Positions 58,400 to 64,000 of a stretch of DNA of 64,000 bases are shown here, in pieces. Both the position numbers and the translations under genes were made by a program. Every line of letters starts with the position of its first letter. The first letter of the stretch is position 1. This DNA is from Candidatus Nitrospira neomarina (GTDB taxonomy: Bacteria > Nitrospirota > Nitrospiria > Nitrospirales > UBA8639). Below the pieces are notes generated by a model. That model ran no database searches and was not told the origin of the DNA. It saw only the letters and a program-made list of their open reading frames with translations. The stretch lies in contig NZ_CP116968.1 in the NCBI RefSeq assembly GCF_032051675.1, positions 868,001 through 932,000 of the forward strand. The letters are read 5' to 3'.

Positions 58400-59053
58400 A
58401 TGCCACGCAGGTCGGCATCGCCGTTTAACCTCCAGAAGTTCCTGGCTCAGGACGGTAGCGGCAAAAAAATTCTGACGTTCCCTAAAAAGCAGAATCTCTT
58501 TTCGCAAGGTGATGTGGCGGATGCCGTGTTCTATATTCAGTCAGGCCAGGTCAAACTTTCGGTGGTCTCCAAGCAGGGGAAGGAAGCTGTCTTCGGGATT
58601 GTGGAACAAGGGGGGTTTGTAGGGGAAGGGTGTTTGGCTGGACAGCGGGTGTGCATGGCCACGGCGACAACCCTGGAAGACTCCACTCTGGTCCGAATTG
58701 ACAAGCAGGCGATGATCCGGGTGCTTCACGAGGAACCCACCTTCTCGACGATGTTCATGGAATATCTCCTGGCTCGTAACGTTCGCATCCAAGAAGATTT
58801 GGTGGATCAGCTGTTTAATTCGGCTGAGAAGCGGCTCGCGCGGGTGCTGCTCCTCATGGCTCATTTTGGCAAAGAGGGCAAGCCGGAACCGGTCCTTGCG
58901 AAGATTAGTCAGGAAACGCTTGCCGAGATGATCGGGACCACGCGGTCCCGGGTCAGTTTCTTCATGAATAGGTTCAGGAAATTGGGCTTCATCGAGTACA
59001 ACGGCGGGTTGCACGTGCACAGCTCCCTCCTCAATGTCGTCCTCCACGACTAA
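58400..59053 (+). CDS. Crp/Fnr-family transcriptional regulator
   Basis: 217 aa with AAAGGAG before ATG 58400. A cyclic-nucleotide-binding-type beta barrel (~20-130: ILTFPKKQNLFSQGDVADAV, VEQGGFVGEGCLAGQ), a dimer helix (~130-155) and a winged helix-turn-helix (SQETLAEMIGTTRSRVSFFM). No Cys cluster for Fe-S is apparent, so it is not a classical FNR; the ligand is unknown. It is the first gene of the right-end stress group and the closest regulator to the five 19-bp palindromes. That it binds them is a hypothesis only. Confidence 0.92.
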   Translation: MPRRSASPFNLQKFLAQDGSGKKILTFPKKQNLFSQGDVADAVFYIQSGQVKLSVVSKQGKEAVFGIVEQGGFVGEGCLAGQRVCMATATTLEDSTLVRIDKQAMIRVLHEEPTFSTMFMEYLLARNVRIQEDLVDQLFNSAEKRLARVLLLMAHFGKEGKPEPVLAKISQETLAEMIGTTRSRVSFFMNRFRKLGFIEYNGGLHVHSSLLNVVLHD

Positions 59054-59140: not shown

Positions 59141-59159
59141 TGAGCAATATTGAACAGAC
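59141..59159. promoter_or_regulatory. 19-bp palindromic motif, copy 1
   Basis: TGAGCAATATTGAACAGAC. The core TGNNCAAT-ATTGNNCA is a perfect inverted repeat at the fixed positions. It lies 80 bp before the micro-ORF at 59239. Confidence 0.65.
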
Positions 59160-59238
59160 AACTCGCGGTGTTTCGTTTACTGTGAACGCTGAAAATGCGG
59201 CTCACCGGCATGACGATGGGCGAGAAGGAGGTGACCCC

Positions 59239-59307
59239 ATGAGCGGTCGAGTGACACGATTTATCCCCAGAATGATCCAAAAGTTGAGAGATTCTTGTTG
59301 TAAGTGA
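59239..59307 (+). CDS. Putative 22-aa micro-ORF with ideal ribosome site
   Basis: MSGRVTRFIPRM continues to a short basic tail with two adjacent Cys. AAGGAGGTGA lies five bases before the ATG, close to a perfect anti-16S match, and a copy of the shared palindrome lies 80 bp upstream. A Cys pair and basic charge could mean a small metal-binding or membrane-active peptide. No homologue is recognised, and it may be a leader. Confidence 0.4.
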   Translation: MSGRVTRFIPRMIQKLRDSCCK

Positions 59308-59641
59308 GGTCCGGCTGATCGAAATGTAGTTCTAATATCCAGCACCTTGGGTCCGCATTTGTGCCACAGGTGGGCCCCATCCGTACTTAAAGGGAGAGTG
59401 ACAAAGGGATTGTCCTGTAAGCGAGTAGGCTGAGAAAGGCTACTTGGAGATCATTTTCAGGAACCTCAACGCACAGGTGAGGTTCCAGCTCGGGATCAAG
59501 GTTGAGAAGTTCAGACAAACGGTGGAAGGGCATCGGCCACGAGCTCCTCAGAGTTGAGGGATCCACGAGCGACCTAAAGGTGACGGCAGTACTGAAACCT
59601 ACATCGTTTGTTTATCCCTATGAGAGTGTGAGGTGAGCATC
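59308..59641. other. Gap with an 8-bp inverted repeat
   Basis: About 330 bases. It contains GGAACCTC (59460-59467) and GAGGTTCC (59479-59486). The surrounding frame reads VRFQLGIKVEKFRQ and may be a gene remnant, but no start or family is supported. Confidence 0.4.
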
Positions 59642-59890
59642 ATGGCACAAACGCACACAAGAAAAAGACAGGACTTTATCCGGGTTCCTTCTGTGGTTCA
59701 TCCTGCTCGTGATTCCTCTTTCACCTGCCCCAGATGTCAGGGACTGTTCGTTCGAGTATTTTGCATGGACATATACGACGGCACTGGAGAAAATGGGTTT
59801 TGGGCCCTTCGGTGTCTTCAGTGTGGAGAACTTATTGACCCCCGGATTCTCCAACATCGTATCTTGATACCCCCGTCAGTCCAAAGGTGA
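59642..59890 (+). CDS. Small zinc-ribbon protein
   Basis: 82 aa from ATG 59642 (GAGGTGA six bases upstream; an in-frame GTG at 59633 is less likely). Two CxxC pairs, Cys29/Cys32 (CPRC) and Cys58/Cys61 (CLQC), are separated by about 25 residues and form a likely Zn knuckle (SFTCPRCQGLFV, LRCLQCGELIDP). I recall many similar short proteins in Nitrospira, none with known role. Possibly a stress-linked regulator or nucleic-acid binder. Confidence 0.75.
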   Translation: MAQTHTRKRQDFIRVPSVVHPARDSSFTCPRCQGLFVRVFCMDIYDGTGENGFWALRCLQCGELIDPRILQHRILIPPSVQR

Positions 59891-60313
59891 CGTTCCCATC
59901 AGCAACCCCCCATGCCCCTGTCCTAATCAGCAACATTCGAGGCTTTGTTTTACACAATCCGAGGGCCGAACGCATTGTGCATGGATGCGACGGAAGATCA
60001 TCCTGAATGTCGGCAACGACGAGCCCACCACCACTTAATGTGGTTAAACGACTTCCCGGTCGATGAGGACAAACATGCAACAGATCTTGGCGTTCCGCTG
60101 AAAGAGGTCGGCTCAAAATCCGATTCCCGTCGTGGAAGCGGATAGGCTGCGCCAAGCGGTTTCCGGATCAATTTTTCAAGCTGAGCAATTTTGACCAGAC
60201 CGGTGCCGGTCTTCACGCCATAATAATCAATCCCCGGGAGAAGATAAGATACCAGGATGTAATTTCGGAATGACAACTGAACGATCATTCTTTCACACGG
60301 CGGGGAGAAACCC
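59891..60313. other. Gap holding motif copy 4
   Basis: About 420 bases with no gene I can support. Overlapping ORFs on both strands (59945-60145 plus, 59998-60330 minus) lack family features. It includes the shared palindrome copy at 60182. Confidence 0.45.
60182..60200. promoter_or_regulatory. 19-bp palindromic motif, copy 4
   Basis: TGAGCAATTTTGACCAGAC. It lies 114 bp before the micro-ORF at 60314 and about 210 bp before the broken superoxide dismutase. Confidence 0.6.
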
Positions 60314-60385
60314 ATGCACCCAGGATCCACTGAAAGAGCAATGGATGCCGCGACGGATGATCGGATTCAACGAGTGCAGGCATAA
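60314..60385 (+). CDS. Putative 23-aa micro-ORF
   Basis: MHPGSTERAMDAATDDRIQ and four more residues. GGGGAGAAA lies a few bases upstream of ATG 60314. It ends 26 bp before the broken superoxide dismutase. Unknown, but it repeats the pattern of motif then micro-ORF. Confidence 0.3.
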   Translation: MHPGSTERAMDAATDDRIQRVQA

Positions 60386-60411
60386 CTCACAGGCACCATA
60401 AAGGAGATACC

Positions 60412-60685
60412 ATGATCATGGCCCCGGAAACGCTTAAGCCACGCGTCTGGAACGCACGGACCGTGCGGGATATCCGACCGCTCCCTGAACATGCATATGG
60501 TCCTGTGGGAGGGGTATGTCAGCGCCACCAATGCCTTGAATGAACATCTTTTCGATCTCATAAATGATGGCAAGCTGGTTCATGAAGAAATGCCGGCCTA
60601 TTCCGAACTGGCCAGACGGCTGGGCGGAGTGCAACCTGAACTCGGTGAGTCCACGTTTTTCCAAGCGTTGGATGAGTCATCATGA
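60412..60685 (+). pseudogene. Frameshifted Fe/Mn superoxide dismutase-family remnant
   Basis: AAAGGAGA precedes ATG 60412. The first frame reads MIMAPETLKPRVWNARTV and stops at 60543. The next frame reads GISDRSLNMHMVLWEGYV, SATNALNEHLFDL and AYSELARRLGG, which aligns with the N-terminal helical hairpin of Fe/Mn SOD-like proteins (pattern GFSDxLLxNHFTLYxGYVxNTN); the His of NMH fits the first metal ligand. It then ends at a stop (60685) after ESTFFQAL, where the family has LHELYFENL. The second half of the enzyme is missing or scrambled. Family recognition is by eye. Confidence 0.6.
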
Positions 60686-60915
60686 ACATGGGGCGGTGGC
60701 GGGGTTCATTTCGATCCTCGTCATGGATGGGTGGGGAACGCCTAACTTCTCGATTGCCAGATTTCCGAAAGAGGGTCCATAACCGAGTGTTGGCCTAATA
60801 TCGATTGACAGTTAATGGAGAAGCGGTTGCAGCATTGTGGGAGGATGAAAAAAGGCCTTGGGGGACATGTACCCGGTAGAAGAGAACCGTCGGCACGCCC
60901 CGAAAGGAGGAATCC

Positions 60916-61500
60916 GTGGAAAAGGATGGAATCGGGAAAGAAACTATCGGGCTGACTGAGATGAAGACGCCCCGGGCTCGGGAACGAAAAGGGCTTAAAA
61001 ATAGCACCATAACATCTGGATTTAAGGACAAGGCGAACATGGTGGTCAAGTTGCTCAATGAAGCACTCGCCACAGAGATCGTTTGCGTCCTTCGCTATAA
61101 GCGCCATTATTTTATGGCAGCCGGGATTAGTTCATTCAGCGCGAAGGCTGAGTTTCTCCAACACGCCCTGGAGGAACAAGCCCATGCCGATCAATTGGCC
61201 GAACGCATTGTTCAAATCGGGGGAGAACCGAACCTGGCTCCCGAAGGGTTCCTGAACCGGAGTTACCCGGAATATGTCGAAGGAGAGTCATTGAGGGAGA
61301 TGATCACGAAAGACCTAATAGCCAAACGGATGGCAATCAACAGCTATCGGGCTTGGGTCGCCTCTATCGGCGCTTATGATCCCACGACCTGCAAAATATT
61401 GGAAGGGATCCTTGCCCAAGAAGAAGAACATGCAGAGGACAGGGCGAGTCTCCTGAAGATATTGGGCCCTGAAGTGATGTCTCATCGACCGACCCGCTAA
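60916..61500 (+). CDS. Ferritin-like (bacterioferritin-type) protein
   Basis: 194 aa from a GTG at 60916 (AAAGGAGG five bases upstream). After a ~40-residue extension comes a four-helix bundle: MVVKLLNEALATEIVCVLRY (Glu54), LEEQAHADQLAERI (Glu87, His90), a third helix DLIAKRMAINSYRAW, and ILAQEEEHAEDRASLL. These give the ferroxidase-type ExxH pairs. Likely role: iron storage and detoxification or peroxide protection. The haem-binding Met of classical Bfr was not identified. Downstream of the broken SOD, so an oxidative-stress unit is implied. Confidence 0.85.
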   Translation: MEKDGIGKETIGLTEMKTPRARERKGLKNSTITSGFKDKANMVVKLLNEALATEIVCVLRYKRHYFMAAGISSFSAKAEFLQHALEEQAHADQLAERIVQIGGEPNLAPEGFLNRSYPEYVEGESLREMITKDLIAKRMAINSYRAWVASIGAYDPTTCKILEGILAQEEEHAEDRASLLKILGPEVMSHRPTR

Positions 61501-62538
61501 GCCGGCAGGAGAACACGGTTCATGAGGGGAAATGGTTCTCGTACTACGCAGATGGCAGGGAAACCGGAGTACGAAGGCCTCAGAGTTGGGAAGCCTGGCT
61601 AGCATGGAAACGAGCTTTAAAGCCAAGACCGGTACCATCAAAACACAAAGGGATTTATTTTCAATTTTTCTTACCTGCCTGAAGGGAGGCCTATTTGCAA
61701 ACGTGTACCCTTCCAGTCAATGGTGTGATTTCGAATCCGGAGGACTTTAAGGAATGTATTTCGGCCAATTTCTCATTTTTTCTGGGACGTTCATCCAGCC
61801 TTATCCGACGAATTTTACAAGAACTAGGCCAATGGACCCACAATACTGGACATGAAAAATTGCTTCTCAGACTGTCTTTTGAGCTGGTTGACGGTTCATT
61901 GAGTATTGCCCATCTCAATTGCCATGCCGGCCATCCTTGTTGTTGGATGGCTTTATTTCGGAATTCTTTGGAAGGTCCCAGGAAATAAAACCCTCTGCGG
62001 CTTCCAATCCCATCATGTAAGCCCTTAACCATACCACGCCAACCCTGCGTCGGTTCACCTTCCATACACACCTGCGGAATGAGTACCTCGTGCTGGTCCC
62101 CCTTCTGCAGTTCTGTGCCCAGGATCTTGCGGAATTTCAGGACCTGGACATGACACAAAAATTGGGCGTTCTCGCCAAGATCCAATCTACCCTCGAGTCG
62201 GGCGGTCCCGACTGATACGCGGCTAAGTTCATCGTTGACTCTTCCATGACACAAGGACGTCTCCTTGAGTTGGTAGACAAGCCTTTGCGGGACTCTCCGG
62301 ATATCTGAAGCTTCGATAGAGAAGCGTAGCGAGGGACGAGGCAAGATATGTAGTAAGCCAAACTACTTGTGTTGTCCAGAATGAAAGCTCGCCGATTTCA
62401 AGTTGAGTGAGACTAAGCCGGCTGCGGAAAGAATTTCCCCCATGTGAGCAATTTGGAACAGACGGCGAGCGGTCGCTGGTTTATCATGCAAGTGATTGCC
62501 ATGGAATCCGTGGCAGAGCGAACGTGGCTGGTTTAACA
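61501..62538. other. Degraded-looking region between ferritin and zinc-ribbon genes
   Basis: About 1 kb. Plus-strand fragments look protein-like: 61695-61988 (LLLRLSFELVDGSLSIAH) and 62021-62215 (FTFHTHLRNEYLVLVPLLQF, then FQDLDMTQKLGVLAKIQSTL), the latter without a start. These may be pieces of one or two decayed genes I cannot name. The longer minus-strand ORF 61691-62344 is judged a shadow. Motif copy 2 lies at the right end. Confidence 0.4.
62445..62463. promoter_or_regulatory. 19-bp palindromic motif, copy 2
   Basis: TGAGCAATTTGGAACAGAC. It lies 75 bp before the start proposed for the zinc-ribbon gene at 62539. Confidence 0.6.
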
Positions 62539-62721
62539 ATGAATAAATCTTTGGAGGCCTACGACAGAACCCTAATGACGATTATGTTCAAGCAATGTTA
62601 TCGCTGTCGGCTCATCTATGACCACGAGGAAGCCCCAACGCCATCAGGCAATATCAGTCATGGGCTCTGCGGGCGTTGCCTTCCAAAAGAAAGGGAACGC
62701 CTTGGTCTCCAGATCAAGTAG
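62539..62721 (+). CDS. Small CxxC zinc-ribbon protein
   Basis: 60 aa with Cys20/Cys23 (CYRC) and Cys44/Cys47 (CGRC) around SHGLCGRC. The pattern CxxC...SHGxCxxC resembles a zinc-binding module found at the ends of some signalling proteins and as stand-alone small proteins. The start is uncertain (ATG 62539, 62575 or 62584; none has a strong ribosome site). The in-frame extension upstream to 62407 crosses motif copy 2 and is not favoured. Confidence 0.6.
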   Translation: MNKSLEAYDRTLMTIMFKQCYRCRLIYDHEEAPTPSGNISHGLCGRCLPKERERLGLQIK

Positions 62722-62834
62722 GAGTTGGGTTTGCCCTTAGGTCTCTCATAAGAAGCAACCATGGAGCTGATGCACCCAACGCACGCTTCTCGGATCACCG
62801 AGCACAGTTGACGGGACATGAAATCTGCGATCTG

Positions 62835-62853
62835 TGTGCAATATTGACCAGAC
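62835..62853. promoter_or_regulatory. 19-bp palindromic motif, copy 5
   Basis: TGTGCAATATTGACCAGAC, also with a perfect TGNNCAAT-ATTGNNCA core. It lies 125 bp before the secreted-protein gene at 62979. Confidence 0.6.
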
Positions 62854-62906
62854 GACACATCATGTAGGTGTTAACGTTAAGAAGTTCGGGAAGGAGAATT
62901 ATTTAC

Positions 62907-62928
62907 CAAGCAGAACATGTTCTGCTTG
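62907..62928. promoter_or_regulatory. Perfect 22-bp palindrome in the 5' leader
   Basis: Two exact 11-bp halves, CAAGCAGAACA and its reverse complement, with no spacer. It lies 50 bp before ATG 62979 and 53 bp after motif copy 5. It could be an operator or a leader-RNA hairpin. It does not fit the GAAC-N4-GTTC LexA box. Confidence 0.55.
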
Positions 62929-62978
62929 CGCATGAGGTGCTTGAGGCGCCGATGCATGCATTTCAAAGGAGGTTCGTG

Positions 62979-63404
62979 ATGAACGTCTGTAAAGTACTTG
63001 GTGGAGTCGCATGTGTGAGTTTGTTGCTGGGAACGGGAGCCTTGGCTGAGATGGTGGGGGGTGAGCCTGGAACATCGATCAATCCCAAAGAGAATGTGCC
63101 AAATGAGATTCAACGATCCACTCCGAGTGGAGGAGACTTTGGAAAGAGCGGCTCAGGTCCCGGTGATCGAAGTGACGCCCTATCAGGCATGGAAAGGGAG
63201 AAGGCTGTGGATGTCACTGAACAAGGGTTGGAACAAAACGCCGAAAAGACTCATGAGGGTGGAGCCGCGGTGGCCGCCGAAGAACTTCAAGAGAAGGGCG
63301 ATCAATCAGACAAAGATATTGCTGCTCAAAGCTCTCATAAAGACATGAAGAAAAAGCTCCCAAAGAAAGAGCTGGAACAGGCCGATCCTTCCGTGAAGGA
63401 GTAA
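62979..63404 (+). CDS. Secreted acidic low-complexity protein
   Basis: 141 aa from ATG 62979 (AAAGGAGG six bases upstream; the ORF can be extended to 62868 but without support). A Sec signal peptide (MNVCKVLGGVACVSLLLGTG) is followed by cleavage near ALAEM. The mature protein is Gly/Ser/Glu/Lys-rich and hydrophilic (EELQEKGDQSDKDIAAQ), with no clear fold, like hydrophilin or desiccation-type proteins. Motif copy 5 and a 22-bp palindrome lie in its upstream region. Confidence 0.7.
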   Translation: MNVCKVLGGVACVSLLLGTGALAEMVGGEPGTSINPKENVPNEIQRSTPSGGDFGKSGSGPGDRSDALSGMEREKAVDVTEQGLEQNAEKTHEGGAAVAAEELQEKGDQSDKDIAAQSSHKDMKKKLPKKELEQADPSVKE

Positions 63405-63913
63405 AGCGGGCTGGAAGTCAAAATGAACGCCTACGCCAGCCTGCCTGTCAATCGGGCAGGTTGGGCTATCTGCCGACAATCAGTTGGCGATCCATAAATC
63501 ACCTCCAGGATGCGACATCCCGGCCATTTCGGTTGTGTCAACTAGTGCCAGCACTTCCTCTCAGAATGTAGTCCGAACGCCCTCTTTCCGTGACCTCGGG
63601 GACCTGCTTCAAAAAGTTGGTTGGCGACCGTCCCTCCTCCACACTTCTAACATGTAAAATGGCGTGGGCGCTCCTATGTCGGTGCCCTTCTTGATCCTTT
63701 CTGCCGCGATCCATTCCCCAGTCTCCACTGGTTACCCAAGATTTTGGCTGGAGGCCTGCCATCTCTTTTGTGTTGAACACGGATGGACCCAGGATCCTGA
63801 TTCTTCACCGTGAGCAATAGTGAACAGACAAAAAGAGCTGGGGTTGATAGGGTTCCGGCCGTTCGTGGCATGTATCATACGCAGTTAACCATCATTGGAA
63901 AACGGAGGTGCAC
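63405..63913. other. Gap between secreted-protein gene and DUF3309 gene
   Basis: About 500 bases. It includes a hairpin CCTGCC...GGCAGG just after the preceding gene (near 63440-63462) without a T-run, and motif copy 3 at 63811. Minus-strand ORFs at 63538-63780 and 63674-63871 lack support. Confidence 0.45.
63811..63829. promoter_or_regulatory. 19-bp palindromic motif, copy 3
   Basis: TGAGCAATAGTGAACAGAC. It lies 84 bp before the DUF3309 gene. Confidence 0.6.
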
Positions 63914-64000
63914 ATGAACACCATACTCCTCGTTATCCTGATCCTACTCCTTCTTGGCGCGTTGCCGACCTGGCCTCATAGTGCGAACTGGGGTTATGGC
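63914..64000 (+). CDS. DUF3309 small hydrophobic protein (3' end beyond right edge)
   Basis: The first 29 codons read MNTILLVILILLLLGALPTW and continue with a His/Ser/Gly/Tyr segment. This fits DUF3309, a ~50-aa family with two hydrophobic helices around a WPxS-x-WGYGPSG-like turn. GGAGG lies five bases before the ATG. Truncated by the window edge. Possibly stress induced; function unknown. Confidence 0.75.
   Translation, partial: MNTILLVILILLLLGALPTWPHSANWGYG

Follow-up and report, generated by a model that had tools for sequence, protein, structure and literature searches.

A stretch of 64,000 nucleotides of the Candidatus Nitrospira neomarina genome (4.80 Mb, one contig, NZ_CP116968.1), covering genome positions 868001-932000 and called the window here, carries near its end a gene for a Crp/Fnr-family protein, followed by five copies of a short palindromic repeat and a row of small genes. 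The initial annotation, made from the letters alone, had proposed that the repeats mark an undescribed regulon, perhaps controlled by the protein encoded at 58400. Its five repeats were recovered where it had placed them, on the plus strand and with the sequences it gave. The features of this region are listed below in window coordinates, with the operators and -10 boxes as predictions.

58400..59053, plus: Crp/Fnr-family regulator of 217 amino acids, with a sensor domain of the cyclic nucleotide monophosphate (cNMP)-binding type and a Crp-type helix-turn-helix, recognition helix GTTRSRVSFFMNRFRKLGFI
59141..59159, plus: operator 1, 16-bp palindrome (59141-59156) and start of the -35, by pattern search
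59155..59160, plus: -35-like hexamer CAGACA of operator 1, from the sequence, 17 bp before the -10 and by GAC/-10 coupling
59178..59183, plus: -10 box TACTGT of operator 1, at offset 37
59239..59307, plus: micro-open reading frame (micro-ORF) of 22 amino acids with a ribosome-binding site, a possible leader, not detectably conserved
59642..59890, plus: Zn-ribbon-like small protein, probable first conserved target of operator 1, weak Pfam zinc-finger matches, kept in relatives
60182..60200, plus: operator 2, by pattern search
60219..60224, plus: -10 box CATAAT of operator 2, at offset 37
60916..61500, plus: ferritin-like protein, probable conserved target of operator 2, Pfam PF00210 (E 3.2e-23)
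62445..62463, plus: operator 3, by pattern search
62482..62487, plus: -10 box TATCAT of operator 3, at offset 37
62539..62721, plus: ORF for a small CxxC protein, predicted target of operator 3, no Pfam match
62835..62853, plus: operator 4, by pattern search; orthologous promoter in locus L187 at 2110, spacer near-identical
62872..62877, plus: -10 box TAACGT of operator 4, at offset 37 and by the relative's promoter
62979..63404, plus: secreted acidic protein with a signal-like N-terminus, predicted target of operator 4, conserved in L187
63811..63829, plus: operator 5, by pattern search; degenerate orthologous site in L187 at 3086
63848..63853, plus: -10 box TAGGGT of operator 5, at offset 37 and by the relative's promoter
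63914..64000, continuing beyond the window end, plus: DUF3309 small membrane protein, predicted target of operator 5, Pfam PF11752 (E 8.1e-15)

Sites in the window and across the genome

The pattern TGWGCAATWKKGAMCAGAC was searched by pattern matching with mismatches allowed. At up to three mismatches the window holds five matches, all on the plus strand, against 0.27 expected by chance, and none of 100 shuffles reached five. No further copy is present in the window, as had been claimed by eye, and the five start codons proposed behind the sites (59239, 60314, 62539, 62979 and 63914) all exist. Genome-wide, nine sites were found at no more than one mismatch, all on the same strand, of which the last four lie outside the window; the predicted targets of these four follow them.

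Genome 927141, 928182, 930445, 930835, 931811, 932907, 935104, 2056199 and 2403925: the nine sites
Genome 933007: CsbD gene
Genome about 935410: second Zn-ribbon gene
Genome about 2056370: LTA-synthase-like sulfatase gene
Genome 2404045: PAS histidine kinase gene

Seven of the nine sites are packed into the 8 kb that follow the 58400 gene, and none of the nine falls within a credible gene. The remaining 15 matches are weaker, one with two mismatches and all others with three, and behave as chance. In place of hits scattered through coding sequence, the search thus returned a sharp set of nine with a -10 box at a fixed distance, so that the regulon reading gains support and the regulon itself becomes larger than the five sites first noted. 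Neither an RNA family (Rfam scan of the island) nor a tRNA (search of the island region) was found.

Such sites could be copies of a duplicated or mobile element that travels with crp genes and has no regulatory meaning, an outcome that the initial annotation had named as fatal to its proposal. In fact, three of the nine (927141, 935104 and 2403925) do have a common flank, which is only the tail of the preceding crp gene; site 2403925 is directly preceded by a crp 3' fossil (translation LRVHSFLLDVVPHD-stop, at L027:3810-3857, genome about 2403810), the distribution is patchy, and the protein is also found on plasmids. Apparently a crp tail was copied there together with its operator and acquired a new target, the PAS histidine kinase, afterwards. 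The other six sites have no flank in common with any other site, and a duplicated element is for that reason excluded as the general cause. Furthermore, conservation ends at the operator and resumes exactly at the -10; orthologues of the promoters at 62835 and 63811 are present in the sister genome G047, where spacer and -10 are kept, and site placement is maintained in relatives although the genes have diverged. Mere copying has a minimal chance of accounting for the sites.

Promoter geometry

In eight of the nine genome sites a YANNNT hexamer begins at an offset of exactly 37 nt, counted from the start of the site, and the ninth has AAGAAT there; none of the 15 matches with two or three mismatches has the hexamer at this offset (Fisher p 1e-5 against the nine strong sites). 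Among 48 Nitrospirota sites collected without requiring a -10, 41 have YANNNT at offset 37, while at the other offsets from 24 to 59 the count was mostly 0-5, with a maximum of 7. The palindrome proper is 16 bp long with half-sites TGNNCAAT/ATTGNNCA, and the inverted-repeat core read by the initial annotation holds; the GAC that it took for a conserved extension of the regulator site belongs elsewhere. A -10 is present in 46 of 50 palindromes with GAC versus 24 of 87 without it, some palindromes being read on both strands in this count. Since GAC tracks the -10 rather than the palindrome, it was assigned to the -35, as the end of a -35-like hexamer, CAGACN, located 17 bp before a TANNNT -10. 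A generic scan for sigma-70 promoters and terminators gave no more matches than chance; it does name a CAGACA-17-TATTAT promoter behind the second crp gene.

Relative to the predicted transcription start the palindrome centre falls at -41.5, which for an operator is the class II activator position of CRP and FNR. With this centre, the overlap with the -35 and a sigma-70 -10, all measured on predicted starts, the geometry is by prediction that of a class II Crp/Fnr-activated promoter. The same overlap would be compatible with repression, in which the Crp/Fnr protein blocks polymerase at the -35, and palindromes lacking a promoter part near regulator genes in Acidobacteriota would suit a repressor as well. 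Repressor sites, however, tolerate variable placement and these sites do not; the -35 is weak, and the centre lies exactly at the class II activator position. Repression was accordingly considered unlikely, and class II activation preferred.

Palindrome and regulator found together

The palindrome was also sought in loci picked by the regulator gene alone, that is, by genes of the subfamily to which the 58400 protein belongs. Twenty copies turned up in the 26 loci from Nitrospirota and another 20 in the 29 from Acidobacteriota, and 14 scrambled control palindromes occurred 0-2 times in the same loci. In a set of 102 regulator loci, some of them reached through the motif, 101 palindromes were counted, where dinucleotide shuffles predict 0.8. 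The regulator gene itself contains none; 25 fall in the 600 bp in front of it and 41 in the 400 bp that follow, with the maximum about 75-97 bp behind the gene. An assumption-free count of gapped inverted repeats (XXnnXXn4) put TGNNCA-N4-TGNNCA first, in 41 of 124 flanks, with the runner-up at 9. Such palindromes also adjoin the subfamily gene in two Alphaproteobacteria, Methylocapsa polymorpha and Bradyrhizobium japonicum, and in Methylocapsa the palindrome sits between the regulator and a divergent CsbD gene.

These observations bear on whether an alternative sigma factor, rather than an activator, could recognise the repeat, as an extended -35. The fixed spacing to a -10-like box in Nitrospirota and the stress-type cargo, which is usual for alternative sigma factors, would agree with it. 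The conserved part is, however, a 16-bp inverted repeat, its presence tracks one Crp/Fnr subfamily, and the -10 with its 17-bp spacer resembles ordinary sigma-70. A sigma-factor site is very unlikely because the palindrome stands alone, with no -10, beside subfamily Crp/Fnr genes.

Motif and protein (threshold in the Nitrospirota survey, E up to 1e-40) were then compared genome by genome. At family level, the exact motif was present in 7 of 49 genomes and the subfamily protein in 10, with all 7 within the 10. The survey gave motif in 31, protein in 37 and both in 31 of 296 Nitrospirota genomes (p 2.4e-36), 18, 19 and 18 of 40 genomes of one genus (p 1.7e-10), and 7, 31 and 7 of 247 Acidobacteriota genomes (p 2.6e-7), Fisher values that overstate independence, the genomes being related by descent. 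The reversed pattern matched nowhere in any genome. Outside Nitrospira, 29 of the 34 genomes with motif matches, chance or true, have the subfamily protein; two matched genomes without it, an Alistipes and a Bacillus, fit chance matches among 85,000 genomes. In the Alphaproteobacteria sample just 5 of 337 genomes have the subfamily, not enough to test co-occurrence. The patchy spread inside one genus suggests repeated joint gain or loss of regulator and motif. A tree of the regulators, which keeps Nitrospirota and Acidobacteriota rows apart with two label changes, adds little.

Co-occurrence alone cannot separate linked genes, and another DNA-binding protein is possible as the binder only if it is always inherited with the Crp/Fnr protein and the island. 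In three phyla, where the other neighbouring genes differ, palindromes lie on the flanks of the regulator gene. Its recurrent companion, a single receiver-domain protein, shows no DNA-binding domain on reading of the sequence (no domain scan). Such a second protein is highly improbable. The suggestion that the 58400 protein acts as regulator, offered at first with a "perhaps", is strongly supported by co-occurrence and by the palindromes beside its relatives' genes, and the same kind of protein and palindrome recur together in at least three bacterial phyla.

The five repeats are thus best read as operators of class II activator promoters, bound by the 58400 protein and belonging to a nine-promoter regulon, a reading to which we give a probability of roughly 0.87. 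A dimer of this protein, and probably also of its paralogue at genome 934362, would bind the palindrome TGNNCAAT-ATTGNNCA (predicted binding DNA TGAGCAATATTGAACA and TGAGCAATATTGAACAGAC) and, centred 41.5 bp before the start, touch RNA polymerase over the weak -35 (CAGACN), 17 bp from the TANNNT -10. Nine promoters would be switched on, seven of them clustered behind the two regulator genes, with CsbD, ferritin-like, DUF3309 and DUF1499 proteins, Zn-ribbons, secreted proteins and the PAS histidine kinase as products.

Several points, besides the relatedness of the genomes, weigh against this reading. Six regulator-bearing Nitrospirota genomes have no exact motif, two of them having near-matches. 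No clear -10 offset emerges in Acidobacteriota (2 of 8 sites), and many palindromes there have no promoter part; the mode of action may therefore differ in that phylum, and these palindromes perhaps serve autoregulation or another promoter geometry. Binding by the 58400 protein, activation over repression and stress as the occasion are inferred from sequence, and the genes behind the sites would, by their Pfam family names, be of general-stress types. As an observation on the same phylum, near-perfect palindromes such as TGCTCAATATTGCTCA, with neither GAC nor -10, adjoin regulator genes in the Acidobacteriota loci L254, L259, L285 and L288, and some of these sites then have a second tgagcaNtActgaac-like element.

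The Crp/Fnr subfamily, its relatives and its predicted targets

The 58400 protein has the architecture of the Crp/Fnr superfamily, a cNMP-type beta-roll followed by a Crp-type helix-turn-helix (PF00027, E 8.6e-20; PF13545, E 2.6e-11), and no NCBIfam equivalog model reached its cut-off for it. The recognition helix GTTRSRV is 95-100% invariant among 128 aligned subfamily members. The paralogue at genome 934362-935018, 70% identical, has the same helix, is followed by site 935104, and must be counted as a possible regulator too. E. coli CRP shares the two-domain architecture, a 16-bp-type palindrome at -41.5 overlapping the -35, and a sigma-70-like -10. It differs in the half-site (TGTGA versus TGNNCAAT here), in its recognition helix (R180-E181-T182 versus R182-S183-R184 here) and in overall similarity (about 45 bits in a PDB search; 53.5 versus a cut-off of 266 for the CRP equivalog). 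Glu181 of CRP contacts the operator, and an operator unlike that of CRP is expected because the subfamily has Ser and Arg at the positions of Glu181 and Thr182. The residues of CRP proper (E72, R82, S83 and T127/S128 in CRP numbering) are not found as a set in the subfamily. The phosphate-binding Glu is kept (E76, 99%). At the phosphate-binding Arg position 83% of members have R, the window protein Cys85. The S83-type position is occupied by M/L/T, and by alignment the cyclic AMP pocket lacks its serine and adenine contacts (S83, T127, S128). The ligand of the subfamily may or may not be a cyclic nucleotide. Upstream of the crp fossil lies a gene (L027:724-3285) for a hybrid histidine kinase that has a receiver and, judging from the sequence, also a domain resembling class III nucleotide cyclases; this may point to a cyclic nucleotide as the signal.

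FNR, FixK, DNR and NnrR are alike in superfamily, class II activation and palindromic operators. The 58400 protein nevertheless scores far below the cut-offs of the FNR, FnrL and FixK models, and operators of their TTGAT-N4-ATCAA or TTGAC kind are absent or nearly so near subfamily genes: in the same Nitrospirota and Acidobacteriota loci, known CRP (TGTGA-N6-TCACA), FNR, FixK and NtcA operators were counted 0 times and the DNR type once. Nor does the subfamily show the cysteine-ligated iron-sulfur cluster of FNR; its only common Cys column is 78 (74%), with 95 partly occupied. The closest solved structure by sequence is M. tuberculosis CRP (Rv3676; 3h3u, 3d0s; E 8.9e-16), with the same domain order and a different recognition helix (GASRETV versus GTTRSRV), and the operator of Rv3676 differs from that of the subfamily. 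RedB of Rhodobacter capsulatus represents a previously uncharacterised and broadly spread CRP/FNR subgroup, with a non-palindromic AT-rich 12-mer as its chromatin immunoprecipitation sequencing motif and a regulon of energy metabolism (PMC9603854); it is set apart by motif and regulon. Literature searches, which test absence weakly, found for the operator strings no bacterial regulator of this kind, and no description of the operator or subfamily; both are likely, if not proved, to be novel.

Behind the sites of relatives, the first genes recur: CsbD, BON-domain, ferritin-like, Zn-ribbon, YflT, PRC-barrel, GlsB/YeaQ, DUF1328 and response regulators. This recurrence was judged by clustering because Pfam gave mostly single matches on 54 unrelated downstream proteins. 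A control of random stretches from these loci overlapped the sites and carries little weight. Similar cargo (CsbD, small stress proteins) is carried by the general stress regulons of SigB, RpoS and EcfG, a likeness by Pfam names only; those regulons use alternative sigma factors and respond to many stresses, whereas here a Crp/Fnr activator would act with a sigma-70-like promoter. Among the stress-like gene types first noted in the window, the ferritin-like and DUF3309 assignments were borne out by Pfam. The "broken" superoxide dismutase was not: Pfam gave no match for the ORFs at 60412 and 60491, and 60412-60685 has no relative in sister loci. Some of the successive short genes proposed as targets also stand, and others may be leaders rather than target genes, namely the micro-ORF at 59239 and the short ORFs at 60270-60685, because no relative of either was detected in the sister loci.

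Crp/Fnr genes annotated by family name only abound in the genomes of Nitrospirota and soil Acidobacteriota. The subfamily would gain a concrete operator, a rule for its promoters and a list of targets, each of which can be read from sequence. In the study closest by subject, on a nitrifier community, operator matrices had to be borrowed from other Crp/Fnr proteins, a Nitrospira metagenome-assembled genome being scanned with the NnrR matrix (PMC8510549). With the present code, regulons would become predictable in uncultured nitrifiers and testable in cultured Acidobacteriota or Bradyrhizobium. A wider proposal, tentative and held at somewhat less than even odds, makes this one subfamily (recognition helix TTRSRVSFFMNKFRKLGFI), often multicopy in Nitrospirota, Acidobacteriota and some Alphaproteobacteria, the master activator behind a general stress response that needs no alternative sigma factor. 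It would use its own operator code, spread with its target island and enlarge its regulon by duplication of crp tail plus operator.

Among genomes searched outside Nitrospira, up to 13 subfamily copies per genome were found; G351, G330, G346 and G338 have 8-13 copies each, all with one recognition helix. The gene also occurs on large plasmids of Bradyrhizobium, Methylocystis, Methylocapsa, Granulicella and Acidisarcina (four of nine records predicted conjugative), where it sometimes adjoins CsbD, PRC-barrel or RsbRD-domain genes.

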